Assembly: GCF_907177275.1 (NCBI RefSeq)
Contig: NZ_CAJSLV010000048.1
Location: 124,001-188,000, forward strand
Length of the DNA stretch: 64,000 bases
Direction: 5' to 3'
DNA from: Actinacidiphila cocklensis
GTDB lineage: Bacteria > Actinomycetota > Actinomycetes > Streptomycetales > Streptomycetaceae
In this document: piece by piece, positions 28,686 through 53,909 of the stretch
Numbering within the stretch: the stretch's first letter is position 1
How the letters are laid out: every line of letters starts with the position of its first letter
Notes under the pieces: generated by a model
What the model saw: only the letters and a program-made list of their open reading frames with translations
What the model was told of the DNA's origin: nothing
Databases searched by the model: none
Translations under genes and position numbers: made by a program

Positions 28686-31571
<2,886 letters not shown>

Positions 31572-31643
31572 CGTCCTCGGTACTCCATCGATGTCATGAC
31601 GGCTGCTGCGGCCCGTCTCTGCCCGTGTCCTGCCTGCACAAAC

Positions 31644-31668
31644 AAAAAAGCCCCTCGCGCAGGAGGGG
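31644..31668 (-). terminator. leuS leader attenuator terminator
   Basis: Read on the minus strand: CCCCTC, loop CTGCGC, GAGGGG, then CTTTTTT. The U-tract (31644-31649) directly follows the stem, so this is an intrinsic terminator. It lies between the Leu-rich leader peptide and the leuS start codon, 73 bp upstream of leuS, the classical position of an attenuator. Confidence 0.8.
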
Positions 31669-31691
31669 TGCCGCACCGACGTGGTTCGTTG

Positions 31692-31730
31692 TCAGCGCGG
31701 CTCGCTAAGCAGGAGGCTCATGGCTCGCAT
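31692..31730 (-). CDS. leuS leader peptide with three consecutive Leu codons
   Basis: A 12-residue open frame reading MRAMSLLLSEPR on the minus strand; the Leu codons are CTC, CTG and CTT. A second ATG would give MSLLLSEPR. It stops 24 bp before the attenuator stem. The nucleotide segment around the Leu codons (GCCTCCTGC...GCGAG) resembles the terminator arm (CCCTCCTGCGCGAG), so ribosome stalling at Leu codons could shift the RNA between alternative hairpins. Too short to score on its own; its Leu run plus the adjacent terminator is what supports it. Confidence 0.7.
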   Translation of the reverse strand: MRAMSLLLSEPR

Positions 31731-31754
31731 GCCGCCAGGTTACCGCAGCGGGCA

Positions 31755-31787
31755 CGGCCCCCGCACCGTTGACCGGTGCGGGGGCCG
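31755..31787. terminator. Terminator between the sedolisin gene and the leuS leader
   Basis: A perfect 14-bp stem, CGGCCCCCGCACCG paired with CGGTGCGGGGGCCG, with a five-base loop. It starts 28 bp after the sedolisin stop. There is no U-tract, which is usual for Streptomyces terminators. It should separate sedolisin transcription from the leuS unit. Confidence 0.75.
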
Positions 31788-31815
31788 CAGGACTCGCAGG
31801 TGCTGCTGCTGGTGC

Positions 31816-33777
31816 TCAGCGCCCGTGCTTGGGCGGCAGCGAGGACGTGACGTAGCCCTTGGCGGGCGTGCCCACCCCGGTGACGTCGTCGTATCCGACC
31901 GTGGCGTGCAGCGAGGCGTCGGCGCCGAGCGTCCGCAGGGACACGATGGTGCCCTCCGAGGCGTCGAAGGCGTTCGCGTAGTCCACACGGACCACGGCGA
32001 GGCCCTGGCCCTGACCCAGCGGGTGGTCGGTGACGTCGTGGTACGCGGACGTCCCGTACTTGTCGTAGATCAGCGGGTTGGCGAAGCCGATCGCGATGCC
32101 GTGCCTGGCCTGCTGTGCGAGGGCCTGGACGCCGGCGATGACCGGTGCGGCCAGCGACGTGCCGCCGATGCGGTACGTGCTGTACTGCAGCGACCCGTCG
32201 GGGTACGACTGGGTCTGGCCGACCAGGAAGCCGGTGTTCGGGTCGGCGACCGCCGCGATGTCGGGCTCGACACGCTGCTTGACGGTGCCGCCGTTGGCCA
32301 GCGCCAGCGAGTCGGGGACCACACCGCGCTGGTAGAACGGCTGGTCGTAGTACTTGCTGGTGCCGCCGCCCGCGCCGGAGGTGTACGGGCCGGGGAAGCC
32401 GGTCCAGGACTTTCCGTCGGCGGACAGCGGGGCGCGCTCGGTGCCCCAGCCGGTCTCCCACTGGTACTTGTCGTTCTTGCCGACCGCCAGCGAGGTGCCG
32501 CCGACGGAGGTGGCCCAGGGGGAGTTGCCGGGGACGTCGGCCTGCTTCACACCGGTGGAGGCGACGTTGTCGCCCGAGTCACCGGAGGAGAAGTAGAAGC
32601 CGATGCCCTCGACGGCACCCTGCTGGAAGACCTGGTCGTAGGCCGCCGCGATGTCCGGCGTCTCGTTGGCCTCGACGTCGCCCCAGGAGTTGGAGACGAT
32701 GTCGGCCAGGTGGTTGTCGACGACCTTGTTCAGCGCGTCGAGCAGGTCGTTGTCGAAGCAGGAGGCACCGCCGACGTAGACGATGTCCGCGTCGGGGGCG
32801 ACCGCGTGCACCGCCTCGACGTCGAGGGTCTCCTCGCCGTACCAACCGCCGGCACCGCAGTCGACCGTGCTGTTGTAGTCGGCCGGCAGGACCTGCGAGA
32901 GCTGGCCCTTCTTGTACTTCTGGCCGCCGGTGTCGTTGGCGTATCGTGCCGCGTCCTGCGCAATGTACGGCGACGCGTAGGCGTCGGTGATGGCCACCGT
33001 CACGCCCTTGCCGGTGTAATTGCCCGCGCCGTACGCGGCACGCAGCTGGTCGCCGGTGTACCCCTGGATGGCGTACGGGGCCTTGCTGCCGTATGCCGAG
33101 GGGTACTTCGGGTCGGTGTTCGAGCCGAAGTACGTGGAGAAGGGCCCGGCGTTCTTGAAGACCCCGTCCGGAGGCGGCAGCGCCTCGTCGTGGCTGGACT
33201 TCTTCGGTGCCGTGTCCAGACCGGTGACGGTGAGCACCGCGCCGTGCAGCGAGGCGGGCGCGGTGGCGTTGCCGGTCGGGGCGCGGTAGGTGTGGCCCGA
33301 CTTGGTGTAGTTGTGCAGCTGGGTCCCGAACGCCTTCTCCGCGGCGGCCACGTCACCGGTGACGGAGAGGTAGTGCCGGTTGGCGCCGGTCACCTTCAGG
33401 CCCGAGGACTTCAGCCAGGCGGTGACCTCGGCGACCTGCGCCTTGGTCGCGCCGTACGCGGCCTGGGTCTGTGCTGCCGTCAGGTAGTGCCCGTAGGCGG
33501 ACGAGTTCGGGTCGGAAACGGCCTTGGCGTAGGCCGCGAGGCCCTTGGCGTCCTTGCCGGCCAGGTAGACCCGGACGGTCACCTTGGCGGAGTCGGCGGT
33601 GGCGCCCTTGTCCGCCTGGGCGGTGGCCCACTGCGGCTTGGTGCCGGACAGGAGCTGGCGTCCGGCGGACGGATCGGCCGAGGCGGACTGGGTGCCAAGC
33701 GCGAGCGCGCTGGCGACCAGCGGCAGCGCGGCGGCGGCCACCAGTCCCACGCGCGTCCTTTTGCGCTCAAATCTCAT
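31816..33777 (-). CDS. Secreted S53 family protease (sedolisin/kumamolisin-like, with prodomain)
   Basis: A 653-residue pre-pro-protease. A signal peptide (MRFERKRTRVGLVAAAALPLV...ASA, cleavage near 34) is followed by a Pro-kumamolisin activation domain (~50-190, with YGHYLTAAQTQAAYGAT). The S53 catalytic domain starts with AYGAGNYTGKGVTVAITDAYAS. Catalytic residues are visible: Glu and Asp in GEETLDVEAVHAVAPDAD, the oxyanion Asp in SNSWGDVEA, and the nucleophile Ser in GGTSLAAPVIAG; the calcium site is near YDDVTGVGTPAKG. Sedolisins are acid-active serine-carboxyl peptidases. The gene is expected to be exported via Sec and self-processed. Monocistronic, with its own promoter in the 350-bp gap upstream. 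Confidence 0.94.
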   Translation of the reverse strand: MRFERKRTRVGLVAAAALPLVASALALGTQSASADPSAGRQLLSGTKPQWATAQADKGATADSAKVTVRVYLAGKDAKGLAAYAKAVSDPNSSAYGHYLTAAQTQAAYGATKAQVAEVTAWLKSSGLKVTGANRHYLSVTGDVAAAEKAFGTQLHNYTKSGHTYRAPTGNATAPASLHGAVLTVTGLDTAPKKSSHDEALPPPDGVFKNAGPFSTYFGSNTDPKYPSAYGSKAPYAIQGYTGDQLRAAYGAGNYTGKGVTVAITDAYASPYIAQDAARYANDTGGQKYKKGQLSQVLPADYNSTVDCGAGGWYGEETLDVEAVHAVAPDADIVYVGGASCFDNDLLDALNKVVDNHLADIVSNSWGDVEANETPDIAAAYDQVFQQGAVEGIGFYFSSGDSGDNVASTGVKQADVPGNSPWATSVGGTSLAVGKNDKYQWETGWGTERAPLSADGKSWTGFPGPYTSGAGGGTSKYYDQPFYQRGVVPDSLALANGGTVKQRVEPDIAAVADPNTGFLVGQTQSYPDGSLQYSTYRIGGTSLAAPVIAGVQALAQQARHGIAIGFANPLIYDKYGTSAYHDVTDHPLGQGQGLAVVRVDYANAFDASEGTIVSLRTLGADASLHATVGYDDVTGVGTPAKGYVTSSLPPKHGR

Positions 33778-48108: not shown

Positions 48109-49868
<1,760 letters not shown>

Positions 49869-53830: not shown

Positions 53831-53836
53831 TTCCTG

Positions 53837-53909
<73 letters not shown>

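Follow-up and report, generated by a model that had tools for sequence, protein, structure and literature searches.

The 12-codon open reading frame lying upstream of leuS in Actinacidiphila cocklensis, followed by a hairpin and a run of uridines, raises the question of whether leuS is controlled through translation of a leader peptide and, if so, how a ribosome on that peptide's leucine codons could influence the hairpin behind them. We addressed it within a window of 64,000 nt, by which we mean the whole stretch of DNA that was analyzed, and by comparing the locus with its counterparts in other Actinomycetes. As argued below from conservation and pairing models, the element is probably a ribosome-mediated transcription attenuator that would tune leuS to the supply of leucyl-tRNA. 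An initial annotation of this DNA had described a 12-residue leader frame with CTC-CTG-CTT, then a stem-loop with a U6 tract ahead of leuS, and its coordinates are right, including the distance of 73 nt from the last U of the terminator to the leuS start (31571). The parts of the locus are the following.

31737..31742, minus strand: -10-like element TAACCT, seen in the sequence, ending six nt upstream of the leader ATG
31692..31730, minus strand: leader ORF of 12 codons, MRAMSLLLSEPR followed by stop (sequence; family and distant conservation)
31707..31715, minus strand: three tandem Leu codons, CTC-CTG-CTT, the last of which (CTT) is at 31709-31707
31691..31701, minus strand: 5' arm of putative helix P, GCCGCGCUGAC (covariation, family and class)
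31670..31680, minus strand: 3' arm of putative helix P, GUCGGUGCGGC (covariation, family and class)
31651..31668, minus strand: predicted terminator hairpin T, CCCCUC-CUGCGC-GAGGGG (consensus scan, sequence, conservation)
31644..31649, minus strand: U6 tract of the terminator (consensus scan, sequence)
28686..31571, minus strand: leuS, leucine--tRNA ligase, 961 aa (TIGR00396, PF13603)

The leader frame reads ATG CGA GCC ATG AGC CTC CTG CTT AGC GAG CCG CGC TGA (31730-31692). Its end, together with the UGA, is contained in the 5' arm of helix P, and a single base, A31669, lies between the 3' arm of P and the terminator. The spacing of the -10-like element implies a leaderless transcript, whose start would be the A of the leader ATG. 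The product of the downstream gene scores 885.8 bits against TIGR00396 (cut-off 548.4) and matches PF13603, the leucyl-tRNA synthetase editing domain; among the best 80 of 581 LeuS matches in the named collection, Actinacidiphila acididurans has the closest leuS, at 91% over 174 aa. A terminator consensus scan over 401 nt returned T as the only terminator-like site (shuffles gave a mean of 0.0, sd 0.2). The leader folded alone has a z of -1.65, with 16 of 200 shuffles equally good, and because this is only a modest excess over shuffled sequence the evidence for the element rests on conservation. In the 64-kb window, no Rfam family other than two tRNAs reached its gathering score, and the region 30500-33000 gave three chance-level matches only (E 3.1-3.3). 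With no Rfam match at the leuS leader, a riboswitch or T-box reading was rejected. Elsewhere in the window, two tRNA-Ala (GGC) genes on the minus strand (49795-49868 and 53836-53909) have equal scores and lie ~4 kb apart.

A leucine attenuator before leuS is, as a core idea, already in print for Streptomyces, and our locus is a member of the leuL kind. In the passages devoted to them, classical attenuators before leuS were predicted in S. avermitilis and S. coelicolor in 2005 (PMC1262725), and leuL2 of S. lividans TK24, MRAVRLLLSEPR, was described in 2021 as leaderless by RNA-seq, with a hairpin and uridines behind it (PMC8079986). Like Streptomyces leuL, the A. cocklensis locus has a Leu-run ORF directly before leuS with an intrinsic terminator and U-tract between the two, and its leader is equal to S. 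lividans leuL2 in length and also has three tandem Leu codons. Those passages treat one or two species each, and the wider spread, the abutment of helices and the codon split presented below are absent from them. In a literature search that had most subscription journals outside its scope, we found no leuS attenuator beyond Streptomyces, no abutment or codon split for leuS, and no experimental test of any leuS leader; leuS is absent from the main text of PMC4681348, PMC8780764, PMC8269248, PMC4895711 and PMC11109978. A 2010 survey by Lopatovskaya and colleagues, represented by a passage in PMC4833913 that speaks of "chains of RNA helices," may anticipate part of the findings on leuS leaders. 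The extensions that we make to the Streptomyces prediction, namely spread, abutment and codon split, are computational, and we word them as predictions from sequence comparison and pairing models.

How widely is the arrangement kept? In all of the 151 Streptomycetaceae loci examined, leader and hairpin stand upstream of leuS in unchanged order; these loci represent 143 distinct leader sequences and come from overlapping collections, so some species may count twice. The choice of 100 of them was made via LeuS and was independent of the leader (80 of these are the best 80 of 581 in the named collection). Used as a DNA query, 111 nt of the leader matched 31 of the 35 genomes in the genus and 228 of 297 drawn from the family, many of the latter matches spanning only half the query and being counted as listed. 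A follow-up with LeuS took in the 20 listed of the 69 family genomes without a DNA match, and the leader was found in 20/20. All loci but one were caught by a first leader pattern (150/151), and the exception, L028, whose peptide ends in PC before the stop, was caught by a second. The leader ORF measures 39 nt in 142 loci, 36 nt in 7 and 42 nt in 2, that is, the differences are of whole codons only. Moreover, TAnnnT precedes the leader ATG in 151/151 loci, by 6 nt (145) or 7 nt (6).

These results support in general the claim of the initial annotation that a leucine leader peptide and a terminator attenuate leuS, and the Leu run and stem, whose alignment in relatives it had put forward as a check, are kept in all 151 family loci and beyond. 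A transcript start downstream of 31692, which it had regarded as fatal to its own reading, is disfavored by the TAnnnT motif and by the S. lividans homologue, leaderless according to the passage on it in PMC8079986. By eye, GTTTCCG often comes directly after the terminator U-tract in Streptomycetaceae. The T stem and most of the T loop (CCCCTCCTG..GCGAGGGG) are nearly frozen across this family and, outside it, drift with compensation.

The same collection of loci speaks to a simpler view, in which T would terminate transcription of the gene upstream and the short ORF would be there by chance. A kumamolisin-like peptidase gene (PF09286, PF00082; 33777-31816, minus strand) is indeed codirectional and ends at 31816. 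However, a tRNA-Ala (GGC) gene, and not the peptidase, precedes the leader in five of eight relatives tested (L032, L033, L035, L039 and L070), and leader plus T remain with leuS when the upstream gene differs. In addition, the -10 element is found before the leader ATG in every one of the 151 loci, and the peptidase gene has a GC-rich inverted repeat of its own at ~31784-31752, without a U-tract, as judged by eye. We therefore consider this view very improbable.

Beyond the family, we searched with R1, a covariance model built from 59 family leaders. It matches 60/60 genomes of the order and 157/394 genomes of Actinomycetes (E up to 0.1, strict filters); counting the listed rows, 40 of the 157 class matches belong to Streptomycetaceae and 117 fall outside that family. 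The class count misses some, because a rescan of 20 of the 237 no-match genomes found the element in two (L385 and L390). For closer inspection 80 R1 matches were fetched, picked from the order and class lists and including weak and second matches, and leuS is downstream in 72 of them (67 by motif, five by reading). Of the remainder, one locus (L226) stops at the contig end and seven lie before non-leuS genes, which are leuA (L263, L269), leuC (L260) and citramalate synthase (L258, L259, L261, whose genes match the profile TIGR00977), the seventh being L270, with a peptide resembling S. lividans ilvL. The profile matches of the leuA, leuC and citramalate synthase genes fall below curated cut-offs because the genes are cut, and R1 matches the leuA and leuC leaders weakly (three loci). 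All distant loci come from R1, a model that itself favors CTT and short spacers.

Several particulars of these distant loci were also noted. The leaders before citramalate synthase (L258, L259, L261) are Ile/Val-rich, such as MPSQVLIIVRRAG followed by stop, and have by eye a flush layout of P and T, while the leader before leuC (L260) is MRTVLLLLSGRDETSF followed by stop. By eye, many distant loci within L194-L257 share a conserved motif near CATGTCCGGA directly after the terminator U-tract.

What, then, would connect the leader peptide to the terminator? The candidate is helix P, which pairs the end of the leader, including its stop codon, with the segment immediately before T. In the family alignment (59 sequences), 98.7% of cells pair, 28 cells are changed on both sides versus 7.1 in shuffles, and the covariation score is 0.122 versus 0.083 shuffled and at most 0.060 slid; two pairs are changed on both sides, which is not unusual since 148 of 500 shuffles reach this number. 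T is almost invariant within this alignment. In the class alignment (83 sequences), which was fitted to the covariance model and so leans towards it, 11 of 17 pairs are changed on both sides versus 5.7 in shuffles, with 79 cells changed on both sides versus 14.9 shuffled, and the score is 0.242 versus 0.125 shuffled and at most 0.074 slid. Judged by these alignments, P and T covary across the class Actinomycetes.

The position of P relative to T is tightly kept. All 151 family loci have a short spacer, varied in sequence, that separates P from the 6-bp T stem by 1 nt (30 loci), 2 nt (118) or 3 nt (3), and the distance from leader stop to T varies from 22 to 114 nt. When the helix search was left unrestricted upstream, 60 of 61 family sequences had their best helix end 0-3 nt from T; a shuffled-spacer control placed it at most 3 nt away in 18 of 61, at a mean score of 17.3 versus 28.7 for the real sequences, and our abutment argument leans more on the constancy over 151 loci than on this control. 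In the distant loci, T stems often take in the spacer, and the gaps between P and T (69 parsed of 73) are 0 (36), 1 (20), -1 (6), 2 (4), -2 (1), 5 (1) and 6 (1). The family numbers are the cleaner ones because the distant search was limited to gaps of -2 to 8, L248, L254 and L273 look misparsed, and R1 favors short spacers. P and T have no bases in common in the family, and they overlap by 1-2 nt in 7 of the 69 distant loci (gaps -2 to 8).

We then asked what a ribosome would do to these helices in models in which its footprint was masked on each Leu codon and on the stop codon and pairing was computed, for 143 family and 66 distant sequences. In the family, the median probability of T is 0.999 for ribosome-free RNA and 1.000 for each ribosome position, with minima of 0.011 (ribosome-free), 0.609 (first and second Leu codon), 0.283 (third) and 0.644 (stop). 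P has median probabilities of 1.00, 0.998 and 0.49 for a ribosome on the first, second and third Leu codon, respectively, and of 0 for one on the stop, the last two values following largely from the masking of the P 5' arm. The 66 distant loci agree, with T below 0.5 in one sequence when ribosome-free and in three when the ribosome is on the stop. In these models, P is a ribosome-dependent helix. P and T are compatible in every modeled state, and P leaves T possible in free RNA.

These computations allow a classical overlapping attenuator to be weighed, in which the Leu-codon segment, or codons 9-10, would pair with the terminator arm in place of T. A. cocklensis itself invites such a reading, since its minimum-energy fold pairs the Leu-codon segment with the T loop and 3' arm and its ribosome-free T reaches a probability of only 0.69 because that segment competes. 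In the family, the duplex between Leu segment and T beats random synonymous Leu codons in 136/143 sequences (mean -9.6 versus -7.8 kcal/mol) and is stronger than a usage-weighted null in 129/143, and the leuS elements are called classical, with an antiterminator hairpin, in the passage on them in PMC1262725. The excess is modest, however, and the statistic ignores relatedness; pairing of the Leu segment is negligible in the 143 family sequences (median 0.000 ribosome-free), T keeps a median of at least 0.999 in all states, and the 66 distant loci behave alike. Overlapping pairing also has the wrong sign for starvation because a ribosome stalled on the Leu codons blocks it, and we find this reading unlikely. 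The initial annotation had seen a resemblance between the Leu-codon segment and the terminator arm "as in classical attenuation." The resemblance stands in A. cocklensis, in the minimum-energy fold, and does not stand as a conserved alternative in the family, and the segment was accordingly dropped as a candidate antiterminator. The classical part of the description is not supported: against competition for the terminator arm stands a T median of 0.999-1.000 in all states (143 family and 66 distant sequences), and against overlap stands a conserved, ribosome-dependent helix P that abuts T without sharing bases in most loci. Two other candidate pairings were discarded as well. One would join the T loop to the 3' arm of P, the other codons 9-10 to the 5' arm of T, and by eye they are not maintained in sequences with an altered T loop or codon 10.

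In the attenuator that we favor, with P as the ribosome-dependent helix, the transcript would begin at the leader ATG, as its -10 element suggests here and as reported for S. lividans, and the ribosome would start on a 5'-terminal AUG. With ample Leu-tRNA, the ribosome would reach the UGA within the P 5' arm, P would not form, T would form, and RNA polymerase would stop. With scarce Leu-tRNA, the ribosome would wait at the Leu codons and P would form, adjoining the base of T. The dependence of P on ribosome position comes from the models, and we infer that P lowers termination. Because P and T can coexist in free RNA, this antitermination step is without thermodynamic support, and the constant abutment of P and T points to an action of P on T within the elongation complex. 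We propose, since the two helices share no bases in most loci, that P may antiterminate sterically, by lying "flush" with T: closure of T has to take place within the RNA exit channel, the strand 5' of the T base would have to run back out beside T, and with a spacing of 0-3 nt that strand would be locked in P. To this flush step we give about an even chance.

The compatibility of P and T in free RNA could also mean the reverse, namely that P assists T in a stacked composite terminator on which leucine has little effect, none, or one of opposite sign, and the constant abutment would equally suit coaxial stacking. Such an arrangement leaves unexplained the conserved Leu run, the CTT, its fixed distance to P, the codon split described below and the presence of the stop codon in or near P in most loci, and it would make leuS expression lowest when the need is greatest; we see only a slim chance for it. 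Hindrance of T by P is preferred over help because leuS should rise as leucyl-tRNA falls. Results from S. coelicolor, as given in a passage of PMC1262725 citing earlier work, count against the attenuator reading of the leuS leader: altering candidate codons was without effect in the ilvB leader and, in the leuA leader, gave results at odds with classical attenuation.

The leucine codons themselves provide a further line of evidence. The last codon of the run is CTT in 150/151 family loci and CTG in one. Among 72 distant loci, where the choice of leader start took the -10 into account and R1 favors CTT, it is CTT in 65 and CTC in 7. Its first base lies 8 nt upstream of P in 151/151 family and 71/72 distant loci. 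In A. cocklensis, CTT at 31709-31707 appears from this constancy to be the conserved control codon. In leuS of the same organism, 78/78 Leu codons are CTG, and in 12 Streptomycetaceae genomes CTG makes up 884 of 898 Leu codons of leuS (98.4%), with CTC or CTT at 13, versus 65.5% of 843 in valS, 59.6% of 891 in alaS and, in rpoB fragments, 62.1% of 599. For leuA (L321-L332, also 12 Streptomycetaceae genomes), the figure is 93.3% of 460, and leuA leaders are rich in CTT/CTC. In 19 distant genomes, some of which have one of the two genes only in part, CTG accounts for 81.6% of 1188 Leu codons in leuS versus 51.8% of 1887 in rpoB, and leuS is higher in 19/19; a twentieth genome (G376) was dropped because its rpoB match is a contig-end fragment. 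Sixteen of the rescanned genomes, with no R1 match and with a readable leuS fragment, have CTT plus CTC at 0.02-0.62, versus 0-0.33 in the 19 leader-bearing genomes, in a comparison made on leuS fragments, with raw G+C and for leuS alone without an rpoB control. A weaker purge of leuS codons in genomes without an R1 match is thus suggestive only.

Selective-charging theory predicts starvation-sensitive synonyms in leaders, and the enteric leu leader uses CUA (passage in PMC1183508). In E. coli after leucine starvation, according to a figure legend in PMC3783181, the rates for CUU, CUC and CUA vary greatly and CUG is fast. The leuS sensor could be built along these lines, its last codon CTT (or CTC) tuning it to the CTY-reading isoacceptor. 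Since leuS is almost without CTY codons, it could still be translated when the CTY-reading tRNA is uncharged, which is presumably what the purge is for. The isoacceptor that reads both CTC and CTT we take to be tRNA-Leu GAG, by standard decoding.

On a broader scale, we tentatively suggest, at somewhat under even chances, that an old leucine circuit with an abutting antiterminator and an isoacceptor split extends across much of the class Actinomycetes. Its abutting part would consist in P and T excluding each other only inside the transcribing polymerase, without common bases. Its isoacceptor part would consist in a leader run that ends in CTT/CTC and a leuS, less strictly a leuA, from which these codons have been purged; the sensor could then stall while the product is made.

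Set against known systems, the leuS leader is a mixture of the familiar and the unusual. In the enteric trp, his and leu attenuators, a ribosome stalled at codons for the cognate amino acid governs termination, as it would at leuS; there the alternative hairpins overlap, and translation of the leader begins in the conventional way. The leuS leader peptide resembles them in its tandem cognate regulatory codons, but it differs from the trp/his type in that P and T are not mutually exclusive through shared bases, and from the enteric attenuators in general in having abutting helices and an apparently leaderless leader ORF. The nearest tested case is the ilvBNC attenuator of Corynebacterium glutamicum (PMC11857589, in the passages on its leader), where the leader peptide starts one nt from the transcript start, CUU is among the control codons, and the bases of antiterminator and terminator are adjacent, as those of P and T are in the leuS leader. 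In contrast to the leuS family leaders, which have a spacer of 1-3 nt and no shared trinucleotide, the ilvBNC hairpins overlap and compete at a shared GCC, and the published model includes a third, anti-antiterminator hairpin that our model of the leuS leader does not have. The LEU element before actinobacterial leuA, described in a passage of PMC1262725 as a pseudoknot without an obvious terminator and with the leuA Shine-Dalgarno sequence as its presumed target, resembles the leuS leader in being Leu-rich, and CTT/CTC-rich in 12 genomes checked.

Our analysis takes a prediction for two Streptomyces species to an apparently covarying element found in many Actinomycetes families, before an essential gene and without an Rfam family. 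It would also offer theory a clean case in which leaders use starvation-sensitive synonyms and the controlled genes insensitive ones. Searches for attenuators that demand overlapping hairpins would miss such elements if abutment on T is how P acts.

Finally, a second small ORF was observed at the start of leuS. This tiny frame, ATG GAG TAC CGA GGA CGA TGA (31588-31568, minus strand), ends in the leuS start through an ATGA overlap. Across the family, ATGGAG is present 15-18 nt upstream of the leuS ATG in 142/151 loci, in 71 of which the frame runs for six codons and stops at the leuS start, and in 57 of which it reads MEL followed by stop.
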